Positions 11,672 through 26,329 of a stretch of DNA of 42,469 nt are shown in pieces. The position numbers and the translations under genes are program-made. Position 1 is the first letter of the stretch. The number at the start of each line of letters is the position of its first letter. Source of the stretch: an uncultured Acidimicrobiales bacterium. GTDB taxonomy: Bacteria; Actinomycetota; Acidimicrobiia; Acidimicrobiales; SHLQ01. Below the pieces are notes generated by a model. The model did not search any database and was not told the DNA's origin. It was given only the letters and a program-made list of their open reading frames with translations. The stretch is taken from contig CALHTB010000127.1 in assembly GCA_938038785.1 (NCBI GenBank), positions 1-42,469 on the forward strand. Reading direction: 5' to 3'.

Positions 11672-13246
11672 ATGAGCGATGAAGCACCCCGTCGACGCAG
11701 CGGTGGCCGAGCAGCACGAGTGGCAACTCGACAAGCGCCACTGAAGAAGGACGAGCGGCCAATTCGACCCGGCCTCCCCGGCGGTCTCTACAAGCCGCTG
11801 TCTGAAGCACAGTTGAAGCAGGTTTACGAGACCGCACTCGAGCTGCTCGAAGACGTCGGCATGGGCACGCCAGTGCCCGAGTTTGTTGAAGTCGTTACCG
11901 AAGCCGGAGGCCACGTCGACGAACACGGACGCCTGCGCTACCCACGTGGCCTCGTCGAGCGCGGCATCGACATGGCAGCAAAAGAGTGGATCTGGCACGG
12001 ATTCGACGACGATAAATCGATCACGGTCGGAGGCGACCGTGTGCACTTCGGCACGGGCGGCGCGGCCGTCCTCATGTACGACCCGGTGGCGAACACGTTC
12101 CGCCATTCGTCTACCCAGGACTGTTACGACACGGCCCGCATTGCCGACACCCTCGACAACATCCACTTCTTCGCCCGCACCGTGGTGGCACGCGACCGCG
12201 TCGACAGCCGCGAGCTTGATCTCAACACGGCGTTCGCCACCATGGCTGGCACGTCAAAGCCGCAGGGCACCTCGTGGTTCGAACGCCCACACGTGTACGA
12301 GACCGTCGAGATGTATGACATGGCCCTCGGCGGAGAAGGTGAGTTCCGCAAGCGCCCATTCGTATGTGCACAGAACACCTTCGTGGTGCCGCCGTTGCGC
12401 TTCGCTGAAGAGTCGACCAACTGCATGGTTGCCCAGGTCGAGACCGGCATGCCCATCAACCTGCTTTCGGCTGGCCAAGCAGGCGCAACCTCGCCCGCGG
12501 CACTCGCCGGGTCGTTGGCACAAGCATTGGCCGAGTGCCTGGCCGCCCTTACTGCCGTCAACCTGATGAACCCTGGCCACCCGTGCGTCATGGGCCTGTG
12601 GCCGTTTGTCTCCGACCTTCGAACCGGCGCCATGAGCGGTGGGTCCGGAGAAGAAGGTGTGCTCAACGCGGCGGCGGGCCAGATCAGCAATTACCTCGGC
12701 CTGCCATCGGGTTGCGCTGCAGGAATGACCGATTCGAAGGTGCCCGATGCCCAAGGCGGCTACGAGAAGGGCATCAACGTCACCCTCGCCGGCCAAGCCG
12801 GCACCAACCTGGTGTACGAGAGCGCTGGAATGCTCGGCTCGCTTATGTCGTGCTCGCTCGAGGCGCTCGTTATCGACAACGACATGCTCGGCTCGATCAA
12901 CCGCACCGTACGCGGTATCGAAGTAAACGAAGAAACCTTGTCGGTCGACGTCATCAAGGAGGTCGTGCATGGTGCTGGCCACTTCCTCGGATCACAGCAG
13001 ACGCTCGACCTGATGCAGCGCGAATACGTCTACCCAGAGATTGGCGATCGCGAATCGCCTGACAACTGGCTCGATGCTGGCGGCAAAGATCAACTCACCG
13101 TGGCCCAAGAGCAAGTGCAGAAACTGCTCGACGTACACCCCACGCACCTCGACCCGGCTCGGGACCGGGCCATACGAGACAAGCTTCCCATCGTTCTCGA
13201 ACGCCCAGGAATCGAGCCAGGGCTCGGCCACGCCGAGGCGATGTAG
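11672..13246 (+). CDS. Trimethylamine methyltransferase (MttB) family protein, non-pyrrolysine type
   Basis: MttB-superfamily proteins are TIM-barrel methyltransferases that move a methyl group from a quaternary or tertiary amine to a corrinoid protein. The 524-residue product has family features including LYKPLSEAQLKQVYETALEL, VHFGTGGAAVLMYDP and IRDKLPIVLERPGI at the end. There is no in-frame TAG, so it is a non-pyrrolysine member. Characterised non-Pyl relatives act on glycine betaine, proline betaine or carnitine. The first 25 residues are basic and Arg-rich. The ATG is preceded by GAGG at 7-nt spacing. No corrinoid-protein gene lies beside it; the methyl acceptor must be encoded elsewhere or be different. 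It probably shares the transcript of dehydrogenase copy B. Confidence 0.9.
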   Translation: MSDEAPRRRSGGRAARVATRQAPLKKDERPIRPGLPGGLYKPLSEAQLKQVYETALELLEDVGMGTPVPEFVEVVTEAGGHVDEHGRLRYPRGLVERGIDMAAKEWIWHGFDDDKSITVGGDRVHFGTGGAAVLMYDPVANTFRHSSTQDCYDTARIADTLDNIHFFARTVVARDRVDSRELDLNTAFATMAGTSKPQGTSWFERPHVYETVEMYDMALGGEGEFRKRPFVCAQNTFVVPPLRFAEESTNCMVAQVETGMPINLLSAGQAGATSPAALAGSLAQALAECLAALTAVNLMNPGHPCVMGLWPFVSDLRTGAMSGGSGEEGVLNAAAGQISNYLGLPSGCAAGMTDSKVPDAQGGYEKGINVTLAGQAGTNLVYESAGMLGSLMSCSLEALVIDNDMLGSINRTVRGIEVNEETLSVDVIKEVVHGAGHFLGSQQTLDLMQREYVYPEIGDRESPDNWLDAGGKDQLTVAQEQVQKLLDVHPTHLDPARDRAIRDKLPIVLERPGIEPGLGHAEAM

Positions 13247-23039: not shown

Positions 23040-24017
23040 TCAGCCTCCGATTTGGCTCATGTTGCGCTTCGGACGAATGAAATGCACGGTGTCGATGCCG
23101 TGGCCCGCCCACTTGTCGTGAACTGCGCCCTCGATGATGGCGGCGAGCTCGTCGTCGGTCGCTCCCCCACGCATTGCGTCGCGCAGGTTGTAATCGGTGA
23201 CCGCGAACAAGCAGTTTCGGAACTGGCCGTCCGCGGTGAGGCGGATGCGGTCACAGGTGTCGCAGAACTTTTCGGTGACGGTAGCGATGACGCCAACCTC
23301 GCCTTGTCCATCGAGGTAGCGATATCGCGTCGCCGGCGCCGACGTGCGTTCGATGGCCTCGATCGGGAACGCTTCGTGGATCTCTTCGATGACCCGTTGC
23401 AGAGGCACTACCCGGTCGGGGCCCCATTGCTCGTCGGCGTCGAGTGGCATGAACTCGATGAAGCGAACCATCACGCCCTTGTCGCGGCCGAAGCGAGCGA
23501 AGTCGACTATCTCGTCGTCATTGATGCCATTCATGAGCACGACGTTGATCTTGACCGGGTCGAAGCCGGCATCGATCGCCGCGTCGATTCCTTGGAGCAC
23601 ACGGTCGAGGTCGTCGCGGCGGGTGAGCTCGAGGAATCGATCGCGGTGGAGCGAATCGAGCGAGATGTTCAGACGGCGAAGGCCAGCTTCACGGAGGTCA
23701 TCGGCGACCAACGGCAGCGACACCCCGTTGGTGGTCATTGCCAGGTCGACGCCAAGGTCGGCCAACTTCCTCACCAAACGGCTGAGGTGAGCGCGAACGG
23801 TTGGTTCACCCCCGGTGAGGCGAATGCTGTCGACGTTGTAGCGCTCGACGGCAAGACGGGCGATGCGTTCGATCTCTTCGAAGGTCAGGAGACCGTCACG
23901 GGGCATCCACACCATGCCCTCTTCGGTCATGCAGTACTGGCAACGAAAGTTGCAGCGATCGGTGACAGCGATCCGTAGATCACGGTGCACACGCCCAAAG
24001 GTGTCGACCAGTTCCAT
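23040..24017 (-). CDS. moaA: GTP 3',8-cyclase (radical SAM)
   Basis: MoaA starts molybdenum cofactor synthesis by rearranging GTP. The 325 residues show the radical-SAM cluster C22-x3-C26-x2-C29 (TDRCNFRCQYC), the SAM-binding TGGEPTVR, and the C-terminal second Fe-S cluster motif FCDTCDRIRLTADGQFRNC. The protein ends in the conserved GG. All expected residues are present. The transcript looks leaderless, with TAGAGT six bases before the ATG. moaC follows after one base. On the other side, a repeat-bordered AbiEi-DUF559 gene separates it from divergent moeA. Confidence 0.96.
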   Translation of the reverse strand: MELVDTFGRVHRDLRIAVTDRCNFRCQYCMTEEGMVWMPRDGLLTFEEIERIARLAVERYNVDSIRLTGGEPTVRAHLSRLVRKLADLGVDLAMTTNGVSLPLVADDLREAGLRRLNISLDSLHRDRFLELTRRDDLDRVLQGIDAAIDAGFDPVKINVVLMNGINDDEIVDFARFGRDKGVMVRFIEFMPLDADEQWGPDRVVPLQRVIEEIHEAFPIEAIERTSAPATRYRYLDGQGEVGVIATVTEKFCDTCDRIRLTADGQFRNCLFAVTDYNLRDAMRGGATDDELAAIIEGAVHDKWAGHGIDTVHFIRPKRNMSQIGG

Positions 24018-24029: not shown

Positions 24030-24078
24030 CGACCTCAACGCCATCACAGGAAAGCCCTGTCACACCCCACCACTACTC

Positions 24079-24123
24079 TCGAATTTTGATCGCCGCTGGG
24101 CCTTAGCCGCCCACCATCGATCA
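24079..24123. repeat. Left border repeat of the AbiEi-DUF559 gene
   Basis: TCGAATTTTGATCG (24079-24092) is an exact inverted repeat of CGATCAAAATTCGA at 25100-25113. Next to it, the 26 bp 24098-24123 (starting GGGCCTTAGCCGCCCACC) repeat directly at 25080-25105 with two mismatches. Both copies can fold as GGGC/GCCC hairpins. They bracket the 24169-25071 gene. Confidence 0.65.
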
Positions 24124-24168
24124 CAGATCACTTCCCTCACCTCCAACAGACCAAAATCGAGGGAAAAC

Positions 24169-25071
24169 GTGCATGAGTTTTGGACCTTTGCATCTCTGCA
24201 CCACGGCGTCTTCAGTCGGGCTGAGGCCCGCACCTACGGCGTGAGCGATGACCAGCTGAAGCGGATGATTGCGCGTGGAGACGCCATTCGCATCTATCCA
24301 TCCACCTACCGGCTCGTGATGCATCAAGAAACTTGGTTCGCACGTGCTCGGGCGGCGACGGCTTCAACCAACGGCGTAATCAGCCATCGAGGCGCTGCCG
24401 CCTTGTGGGGAATTGACGGCTTCAAGTTTGGCCGAATCGAGCTAACGGTCGACTACAAGAAGCCAGTAACTCGGCCAAACATCACGATCCATCGAACCCG
24501 TCAGTTTGATCTCATCGACGCACATGAGCTCAACGGCTTGCCAGTTACCGGAGCTTCACGCACAATTCTCGACCTCTTTGCGGTCTTGCAACCCTCACAC
24601 ATGCAACTTGCCCTGGACGCAGCTCTGCGGATGAAACTCGTGGACTGGCCCGATCTGCGCAACGTCCTGGACGCACACTCAGAACACGGACGCGACGGGT
24701 GCGGCAAGATTCGAGCCTTCCTCGACGCCGTCGATACGTCGGCTCGGGTTCCCGACAGCCGCTGGAACCGACAGGTAGCCAGTGCCTTCTTCGACGCTGG
24801 CCTTCCAGAGCCTCGCCTCGAGTTCGAGGTCCGACGTAGTGACGGAAGTTTCGTTGCCCGGGTTGATCTTGCGTATCCGCGACATCGAGTCGCAATTGAA
24901 CTCGACAGTGTGCGTTGGCATCACAATCAAAAGTCGTTCGAAGCCGACCCGCGGCGAAAGAACGCTCTATTGCTCGAGGGATGGCGGGTTCTGACGTTCA
25001 CCTGGTCAGACTTCACAAATCATCGCGACCAGATGATCGCCACCGTGCGAGCAGCGCTGGACGATCTGTGA
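24169..25071 (+). CDS. AbiEi-type winged-helix plus DUF559 (PD-(D/E)XK nuclease-like) protein
   Basis: The 300-residue product has an N-terminal AbiEi-antitoxin-like winged helix (FSRAEARTYGVSDDQLKRMI, 15-34, with RGDAIRIYPSTYRL after it). A central region follows with SHRGAAALWGI and GASRTILDLFAVL, and then a C-terminal DUF559/Vsr-like nuclease fold with Asp233, Glu244 and Asp246 (RVDLAYPRHRVAIELD) and EGWRVLTFTWSD. This family is common in actinobacteria as solitary genes; no AbiEii toxin partner is next to it. Its role is not established; mobility or defence is often guessed. The start is a GTG with GAGGG about 5 nt upstream. It sits in the moaA-moeA gap between border repeats. Confidence 0.8.
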   Translation: MHEFWTFASLHHGVFSRAEARTYGVSDDQLKRMIARGDAIRIYPSTYRLVMHQETWFARARAATASTNGVISHRGAAALWGIDGFKFGRIELTVDYKKPVTRPNITIHRTRQFDLIDAHELNGLPVTGASRTILDLFAVLQPSHMQLALDAALRMKLVDWPDLRNVLDAHSEHGRDGCGKIRAFLDAVDTSARVPDSRWNRQVASAFFDAGLPEPRLEFEVRRSDGSFVARVDLAYPRHRVAIELDSVRWHHNQKSFEADPRRKNALLLEGWRVLTFTWSDFTNHRDQMIATVRAALDDL

Positions 25072-25079
25072 TTACTGGT

Positions 25080-25113
25080 GGGCCTCAGCAGCCCACCATC
25101 GATCAAAATTCGA
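25080..25113. repeat. Right border repeat of the AbiEi-DUF559 gene
   Basis: 25080-25105 is the second copy of the 26-bp direct repeat, and 25100-25113 (CGATCAAAATTCGA) is the inverted partner of 24079-24092. GGTGGGC-N7-GCCCACC (25077-25097) is a 7-bp hairpin just after the stop and could terminate the AbiEi-DUF559 transcript. The repeat ends 5 bp before the moeA -10. Confidence 0.65.
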
Positions 25114-25117
25114 CAGG

Positions 25118-25123
25118 TACGAT
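25118..25123 (+). promoter_or_regulatory. -10 element of a leaderless moeA promoter
   Basis: TACGAT ends six bases before the GTG start of moeA at 25130. The out-of-frame ATG at 25122 is followed by a stop after two codons, so it is not a moeA start. Confidence 0.5.
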
Positions 25124-25129
25124 GGCGGG

Positions 25130-26329
25130 GTGATTCCTCTCTCCGAAGCTCGTGAGTTTGTGTTGTCGAAGTGTAAGCCGGGGCCGATGGTGACGGTTCC
25201 CGTCGATGACGCCGCCGATTTGGTCACCTCGTCGGACCTGGCGGCAGTTGGTCCGATCCCGCCGTTCGACAACACCGCCATGGATGGGTTTGCCGTCCGT
25301 GCGGCCGACGTGGCCGACGCCCCAGTAACCCTTGAGATGATCGGAACTATCGCGGCCGGTGGTGCACCCGACATGACCGTCGGCGAGGGCCAAGCCGTTC
25401 GAATCATGACCGGCGCGCCGATGCCCCCCGGAGCCGATGCAGTCGTCATGGTCGAGCTCACCGAAATGGCCGAAGACGAATCGAGCGTCGACGTGGCCGA
25501 ATCGGTGCCTGTCGGCAACCACATCCGCCCGACCGGCGACGACGTGCAGGCAGGCCAGATCGTGTTCGCTGCGGGCACGCACCTGCGCCCAGCCCACCTC
25601 GGGGTGTGTACATCGATTGGGGTGTACGACATTCCGGTGTTTGCCCGTCCACGGCTGGGTGTCATCTCGACCGGTGACGAGCTGGTCGATGGCCCCCGTC
25701 CGCTTGGCATTGGCCAAATCCATGATTCGAATCGCCACACGTTGCTTGCGCTCGTGGCTGCAATGGGAGCAACCCCGGTGGACCTCGGCCTCGTGCCTGA
25801 CGACGAAGACCAGATCCGCACCGCAATGACCAACGCTGCCGATTCGTGCGACGCAGTTATCACCAGCGGCGGCGTGTCGATGGGCGACTTCGACTACGTG
25901 AAGAAGGTGCTCACCGAGATTGGCGACATGCGCTGGATGCAGGTGGCCATCAAGCCCGCAAAACCCCTGGCCTTTGGCACGGTCAACGGCACACCAATCT
26001 TCGGCCTACCCGGCAACCCGGTGTCGTCGATGGTGTCGTTCGAGCTGTTCGCCCGCCCCGGCATCCGCAAGATGATGGGCCATGACGAGCCATTAGTTCC
26101 ATCGGTCCCGGCACTCGCGGGTGCCGACATGAACCGTGGCCCCGACGGCAAAACCCACTTCGCCCGCGTCCACGCAACGCTGCGCGAAGACGGCCGTTAC
26201 GAGGCCAGCTTCTCGGGCGGCCAAGGCAGCCACCAGCTGTCGGCAATGGCCGCAGCAAACGCTCTCGCCATCGTCCCCAGCGGCGACGGTATCAAGCAGG
26301 GCGAACCCGTCGACCTCTTGATGTTGTAA
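25130..26329 (+). CDS. moeA: Molybdopterin molybdenumtransferase
   Basis: MoeA inserts molybdate into adenylylated molybdopterin. The 399-residue protein starts MIPLSEAREFVLSKC and has PPFDNTAMDGFAVRAAD, the GEAVRIMTGAPMPPGADAVV-like segment (G85-V105 region), GVISTGDEL, ITSGGVSMGDFDYVK and IFGLPGNPVSSMVSFELF. It ends with the short domain IV (GSHQLSAMAAANALAIVP). The GTG start lies six bases after TACGAT and no Shine-Dalgarno is present, so the mRNA is probably leaderless. It belongs with moaC and moaA on the other side of the inserted AbiEi-DUF559 gene. Confidence 0.95.
   Translation: MIPLSEAREFVLSKCKPGPMVTVPVDDAADLVTSSDLAAVGPIPPFDNTAMDGFAVRAADVADAPVTLEMIGTIAAGGAPDMTVGEGQAVRIMTGAPMPPGADAVVMVELTEMAEDESSVDVAESVPVGNHIRPTGDDVQAGQIVFAAGTHLRPAHLGVCTSIGVYDIPVFARPRLGVISTGDELVDGPRPLGIGQIHDSNRHTLLALVAAMGATPVDLGLVPDDEDQIRTAMTNAADSCDAVITSGGVSMGDFDYVKKVLTEIGDMRWMQVAIKPAKPLAFGTVNGTPIFGLPGNPVSSMVSFELFARPGIRKMMGHDEPLVPSVPALAGADMNRGPDGKTHFARVHATLREDGRYEASFSGGQGSHQLSAMAAANALAIVPSGDGIKQGEPVDLLML

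Follow-up and report, generated by a model that had tools for sequence, protein, structure and literature searches.

A palindrome-flanked AbiEi-DUF559 nuclease gene in Acidimicrobiales as the putative mobiliser of a proposed REP-type system

Between the divergent moaA and moeA genes of an uncultured Acidimicrobiales bacterium, there is a solitary gene for an AbiEi-DUF559 protein, bordered on each side by a palindrome of a family that also occurs elsewhere in the genome. We consider it probable that this gene and its two flanking palindromes make up a REP-type system that relies on a nuclease of non-HUH type, with the protein as the putative mobiliser. Several observations lead us to this reading: the palindromes are dispersed and fall into gene-specific families, their copies are present or absent from one congener to another, the cassette has been exchanged recently, and the protein is kept under purifying selection. 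Binding, cutting and mobilisation by the protein are what we infer from these observations.

The features discussed below are given by their positions in the window, i.e., the whole stretch of 42,469 nucleotides that was analysed.

23040-24017, minus strand: moaA, host gene, left neighbour.
24046-25199, no strand: approximate high-identity block common to the window and congener G006, drawn from a 100-nt identity profile and a junction base alignment, with approximate ends.
24076-24129, plus strand: left cognate palindrome of family R1, imperfect, 54 nt, 71.2 bits against the family model.
24169-25071, plus strand: AbiEi-DUF559 gene, 300 aa, from Pfam, structure models and profile matches.
25063-25116, minus strand: right cognate palindrome of family R1, inverted, holding the stop codon of the nuclease gene, 74.2 bits against the family model.
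25130-26329, plus strand: moeA, host gene, right neighbour.

The cassette in the moaA/moeA gap

The initial annotation had described a perfect 14-bp inverted repeat (24079-24092 and 25100-25113) and a 26-bp direct repeat with two mismatches (24098-24123 and 25080-25105) enclosing one nuclease-like gene. On recheck, the inverted repeat was exact, the direct repeat had its two mismatches, and the gene at 24169-25071 stood alone between them. Both repeats are parts of a single longer unit, present at 24076-24129 and 25063-25116. These 54-nt units lie in inverted orientation and are 76% complementary; since each of them is imperfectly palindromic, the pair shows up as a direct repeat too. Only one of 5000 dinucleotide shuffles of both flanks attained the inverted score, and none attained the direct score. 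The right-hand repeat overlaps the end of the gene, so that the stop codon falls within it. None of the five sources searched gave an Rfam match to a known RNA at the palindromes, and the R1 termini, as aligned for the window family, show neither GTAG nor CGTC as a conserved tag (other families were viewed by eye only).

The divergent arrangement of moaA and moeA is that of the genus. Their gap was surveyed by a moeA search in 40 genomes and tblastn of the loci. Among the 10 other genomes of the genus, seven have a short gene-free gap (G001, G003, G004, G005, G007, G008 and G010), one is occupied (G006), and two gave no readable gap (G002 yielded no moeA match, and the G009 contig stops inside the gap). 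The initial annotation had proposed to look for empty sites, and its picture of a bordered single-gene cassette inserted in this gap proved right. Repeats left at gene-free sites would have meant a regulatory role, which the same annotation had named as the outcome that would refute it; they are absent from all six empty gaps that were aligned, and this objection thus fails. The gap of G010 is 71 nt long, and the window gap minus the element at 24076-25116 is also 71 nt by hand count, which fits a clean insertion, with divergence preventing base-exact ends. For the same reason, the exact ends are blurred at the empty sites, and no target duplication can be discerned there.

The occupied gap of G006 holds a nuclease gene whose protein is 95% identical to that of the window and which has an ATG at the place matching the window start codon, in support of that start. 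We compared this locus via L078, an Acidimicrobiales MAG contig that is letter-identical to it over the compared stretches. Per 100 nt, the window and L078 share 87-97% identity between 24069 and 25168, versus 76-91% in the parts of moaA and moeA beyond that block; the high identity extends ~30 nt past the left palindrome and ~80 nt past the right one, into the start of moeA. Correspondingly, the nuclease gene has a dS of 0.249, compared with 1.085 for moaA and 0.834 for moeA. With its dS far below that of its neighbours, the cassette is younger, in one or both lineages, than the split between them. The simplest reading of these sequence comparisons would be a transfer of the cassette into the same site between the window and G006 lineages; an unusual constraint on synonymous sites is a possible alternative explanation of the low dS.

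Each tested gene has its own palindromes

A profile built from five proteins of the family detected AbiEi-DUF559 genes in 10 of the 11 genus genomes, including about eleven in this genome (12 matches, one gene lying in two pieces), which are at most 61% identical to each other among the best matches listed. In all ten testable genes of this genome, the left and right flanks resemble each other with scores of 22-61, against a median of 11 and a maximum of 18 in 45 between-gene flank comparisons. That there are several such genes here, the tested ones each with palindromes of their own, is not part of the initial annotation. What was taken there for a mobile cassette is indeed bordered, single-gene and inserted, but its ends belong to a genome-dispersed palindrome family and are not classical transposon ends. 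Two genes of this genome, C34 (L229) and C60 (L228), look broken (internal TGA; split frame) and have kept their palindromes.

Outside this genome, a contig scan turned up 389 relatives, and 80 of these were retained. Loci were taken to pass our flank test if the flank-to-flank alignment exceeded the 99th percentile of 719 same-spacing controls; the test leaves out 7 of the 80 loci and 2 of the 35 genus genes (N runs mimic palindromes, L096). It was passed by 55 of the 73 usable public loci and by 28 of the 33 usable genus genes, and by none of the 27 moeA genes that served as a control. When each independent site was represented by one gene, 40 of 56 passed, versus 1% of the controls, and 16 failed. 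In a draw across the phylum, with one best gene from each of 30 genomes (this one included), 13 loci passed and 17 failed. The link between gene and palindrome is thus common, and either it is not universal or it decays. Ungapped palindromes were detected on both sides of 26 of the 35 genus genes versus none of the 27 moeA genes; one of these 26 two-sided cases, G003:C15, consists of two unrelated hairpins, and imperfect palindromes, such as those of the window gene, of its G006 twin and of gene C7, escape the detector. The palindromes are frequently tandem pairs, also downstream of the stop codon. Of 296 Actinomycetota genomes sampled, 102 yielded a match with E no higher than 1e-20, up to eight candidates being scored in each.

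Close relatives of these genes tend to sit at the same place. Flanks were homologous, as judged by eye, in 39 of the 43 listed pairs with more than 65% amino-acid identity, and none of the listed pairs above 72% were at different sites. Similar copies at the same site, not hopping, resemble REP/RAYT rather than an insertion sequence. Faster evolution of the gene, as told of RAYTs, was considered and rejected: the gene was less identical than its neighbours in only 12 of 19 same-site pairs, and its dS was higher or lower than that of the neighbours (whose frames were picked automatically, some perhaps being spurious). We read these deviations in both directions as an exchange of alleles, not as simple speed. 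At one fixed site, represented by L087 and L090-L093, the gene DNA differs by 9-25% and the neighbours are 88-95% identical, with the gene dS above most neighbours' dS in three of four computed pairs; it looks as if alleles had been swapped.

A co-evolution of palindromes and proteins over all sites was likewise dismissed, as the Mantel correlation between palindrome and protein similarity at the 56 sites was not significant (rho 0.04, with 309 of 2000 permutations as high). Palindromes are shared only by pairs above a relative protein score of about 0.6. We would also like to comment on three records, L110, L113 and L143, titled Bifidobacterium breve or Bacillus sp. AZ43. Their titles look wrong, the genes and flanks matching freshwater Actinomycetota MAGs and Geodermatophilus, respectively.

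Scattered copies of the palindromes

Family R1 was searched for with a covariance model made from five copies, at E 1e-5, with 150 of ~680-1160 candidates scored per genome. Within this scope, R1 occupies at least eight distinct sites in this genome and at least nine in G006, both flanks counted, and has at least six solo copies here and at least seven in G006; no R1 palindrome appeared among the 150 candidates scored in each of the nine other genus genomes. A single solo site is common to both carriers (1 of 6 here, 1 of 7 in G006). Besides the two flanks, an end-motif search allowing one mismatch had already revealed three whole palindromes in this genome. Within the genus, genes of 95% identity are confined to the window genome and G006, and none of the genes found in the nine other genomes is closely related to that of the window. 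With this genome only 73% complete, the absence of a feature from it is weak evidence.

The palindromes of gene C44 are even represented by 16 distinct copies in this genome, 13 away from the gene and 3 beside it, mostly paired at a distance of about 60 nt; the reversed pattern, used as a control, had no match in this genome. Across the genus, the C44 pattern was found in G005 (13 distinct copies), G004 (2) and G006 (1), and not in the other seven genomes. The G005 gene nearest to C44 is 59% identical and has related but different palindrome ends. As G004 and G006, moreover, carry C44 copies without a close cognate gene, the distribution argues against strict co-occurrence. Among isolates, IMCC26207 has 11 palindrome copies, 9 away from the gene and 2 beside it, and Geodermatophilus africanus has 4, split evenly between the two kinds of location. 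Overall, dispersal was found for four gene-palindrome pairs in three lineages, and the scatter is modest, with tens of copies or fewer versus hundreds for classical REPs.

Two further kinds of support were tried and set aside. Covariation as proof of a hairpin was not significant in either family, shuffles reaching the observed score in 105 of 500 cases for the C44 family and 43 of 500 for the window family; we therefore make no claim that folded single strands are the substrate. The conserved outer arms of the C44 set were discarded as evidence, being fixed by the search pattern. Separately, a GC-rich repeat at L176 (G006) and L007 (this genome, C18), sharing the stretches TATACGCATTGAGGA and GCCGCGTGCGGGAG, resembles another repeat family.

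The position of the copies bears on the question of whether the palindromes are simply autoregulatory sites of the AbiEi-like protein, with the scattered copies marking other regulated promoters and the nuclease acting otherwise. The N-terminal fold of the protein is that of AbiEi, and the AbiEi of Streptococcus agalactiae reportedly binds inverted repeats, as found by Hampton in 2018. The same AbiEi is described as autoregulating its own operon (PMC7725324). However, the gene has palindromes to its left and right, frequently in tandem pairs and even past the stop codon, and many of the scattered copies examined follow stop codons and do not precede promoters. The latter was judged by eye, as were seven further same-site and control choices, notably the intergenic position of solo copies. 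Moreover, whole copies are present in one congener and absent or swapped in another, and such a regulatory role seems quite improbable to us.

Turnover at orthologous sites

These differences emerged when we looked in three congeners for the coding flanks of twelve solo sites, 11 of which were found in G006. The family is retained there at 2 of the 11 sites, C26 and C8, the latter with one copy and not two. At C14, C70 and C95, the palindrome is absent and the gap is short and clean; at C95, G006 differs by about 54 nt directly after a stop codon. C112 corresponds to a diverged gap without a palindrome of the family, C11 and C71 to gaps with a different hairpin, and C4, C31 and C39 to other insertions. 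The palindrome is also missing from G010 at C4 and C39 and from G008 at C4. Palindrome families at scattered sites therefore differ among congeners, and this turnover implies that something copies them.

A few of these sites deserve a separate description. The other-family hairpins of G006 at C71 (L164) and C11 (L161) lie precisely at the solo-site positions, as if these gaps were shared landing places for hairpins. The C39 site of G006 (L179) contains an insert of ~1.1 kb with one reading frame of some 340 codons. At the C31 orthologue (L185, G006), there is a Y1_Tnp gene (IS200-like, RAYT/TIRYT-like) between GGGGTCAGACCCC repeats, a repeat in agreement with GGGGWSAS, the motif that PMC3733652 reports for TIRtrons; the C31 site of G010 and G008 has GGGGTCAGACC-type repeats as well.

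The Y1_Tnp gene at this orthologous intergenic site demonstrates that such enzymes occur in the genus. One might then suppose that an unrelated trans-acting enzyme, e.g., a Y1 (RAYT-like) transposase, moves the palindromes, and that the nuclease gene is cargo. Yet cargo would not need palindromes of its own, such as those borne by ten tested genes of one genome, the repeats of the Y1 gene are different ones, and, among the candidates scored in the genus, the window palindromes are limited to genomes with the cognate nuclease gene. We regard such hitchhiking as very unlikely.

The protein

By Pfam, the gene product has an N-terminal AbiEi_4 and a C-terminal DUF559 above the cut-offs, and a C-terminal MTES_1575 slightly below. 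Residues ~1-180 correspond to an AbiEi-like DNA-binding fold (~190 N-terminal residues by the match to 6y8q) and residues ~195-298 to a nuclease domain of the Vsr/I-Bth0305I-like kind. The AlphaFold2 model, made with 74 relatives, had a mean pLDDT of 88; Foldseek matched its N-terminal part to the AbiEi antitoxin 6y8q (E 7e-7) and its C-terminal part to the catalytic domain of the homing endonuclease I-Bth0305I, 3r3p (E 1e-3). By sequence, the family profile matches 3hrl, 3r3p and PvuRts1I. Over 74 rows, D233 and D260 do not vary, and E244 and H251 hardly vary; these four we take to be the EDxHD motif positions. All 14 same-site pairs gave dN/dS of 0.07-0.34, placing the protein under purifying selection. 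Y1_Tnp is absent from the Pfam matches of 74 members. No AbiEii toxin gene lies beside the window gene, the neighbours being moaA and moeA, and a single-sequence query of IMG/VR contigs returned no phage-borne relative.

In the literature, a Thermosynechococcus DUF559 gene is called a member of the EDxHD homing endonuclease family (PMC9403480), and a review describes I-Bth0305I as dimerising on nearly 60 bp of target DNA (PMC3943268), a length that the palindromes roughly equal. It is reasonable to ask whether the protein is confined to defence, as a solitary anti-phage nuclease, or to homing, as a free-standing endonuclease whose cassette passes between lineages at one fixed site. The scattered palindromes would then be its targets or decoys and not its progeny. 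The I-Bth0305I nuclease fold, the exchange of the cassette at a fixed site with short flanking tracts, and the other same-site pairs, in which the gene dS lies above or below that of the neighbours, would all suit this possibility, and so would the PADLOC AbiEi models, which match 74 of 74 members scanned, through the AbiEi part. On the other hand, solo copies turn over at orthologous sites, and it is hard to see why a defence nuclease should require palindromes of its own to the left and right of its gene. We find a purely defensive or homing role unlikely.

Proposed mechanism and comparison with known systems

If the protein is indeed the mobiliser of a REP-type system, its AbiEi-like domain would recognise the cognate palindrome, with a dimer probably contacting both arms, and its Vsr/EDxHD-like domain would cut or nick there. 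Host repair of the cut DNA might then copy the short palindrome to new intergenic places, leaving solo copies; alternatively, repair might transfer a copy of the entire cassette, palindromes and gene together, to the corresponding site in a relative. We are somewhat inclined to go further and see here a second, independently evolved class of REP-type genomic parasites, in which an AbiEi-guided Vsr-like nuclease works with one palindrome that is border, homing address and copied unit at once.

The closest likeness is to RAYTs and REPtrons. The hallmarks given for RAYT/REP systems are a palindrome-flanked gene (the palindromes being mostly inverted or in pairs), dispersed cognate palindromes and a correlation of gene and repeat (PMC2817692, PMC3733652); REPtrons are described as repeat-specific, and REPs as able to supply stop codons (PMC3733652). 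Here, too, the gene lies between palindromes, cognate copies are dispersed in intergenic DNA, several specific gene-palindrome pairs coexist in one genome, the palindrome gives the stop codon, and gene presence correlates with cognate repeats. Unlike in RAYTs, the protein combines an AbiEi-like fold with a Vsr-like nuclease and has no HUH/Y1 domain, the palindromes are 45-60 nt long versus 20-40 and lower in copy number, and no fixed GTAG tag is seen. As the enzyme is not an HUH transposase, the system is not a RAYT.

With the EDxHD homing endonuclease I-Bth0305I, our system has in common the fold and sequence of the catalytic domain, an apparent exchange of the cassette at a fixed site with short flanking tracts (seen as an exchange trace only), and the long target, of nearly 60 bp as reported for I-Bth0305I. 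It differs in lying outside any intron or intein, in having palindrome borders that are also dispersed, and in its DNA-binding part, which has the AbiEi fold. The AbiE (type IV) toxin-antitoxin systems share that N-terminal AbiEi fold, whereas here it is fused to a nuclease, with palindromes on both sides and no AbiEii toxin beside the window gene. Finally, terminal inverted repeats around one gene and short non-autonomous copies recall a MITE or single-gene insertion sequence, but the short copies are single palindromes or tandem pairs and not internally deleted cassettes, and a recognised transposase is absent. In open-licence PMC articles, bioRxiv excluded, we met no earlier report linking DUF559/AbiEi genes with dispersed palindromes, though one may exist elsewhere.

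Actinomycetota frequently have genes with the annotation AbiEi antitoxin or DUF559. No function is accepted for these genes, and the PADLOC AbiEi models, which are defence-family models, match them. Should our scenario be true, a large unexplained class of genes would gain a function and the short palindromes of Actinomycetota an origin; the frequent solitary AbiEi-DUF559 genes would be explained, with about a third of Actinomycetota genomes concerned, and REP-type systems, thought to be HUH-dependent, would have arisen twice. In that case, the DNA target of any such gene should be readable from its flanks, which offers a direct test. CGTC-tagged REPs are said in PMC3733652 to have no dedicated transposase, and it can now be asked whether a nuclease of the AbiEi-DUF559 kind serves them.

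One minor observation concerns another part of the window. Rfam PYLIS_3, the pyrrolysine insertion sequence of mttB, matches at 12725-12824, inside the frame 11672-13246 (Pfam MTTB); as no internal stop codon interrupts this frame, the methyltransferase appears to do without pyrrolysine.
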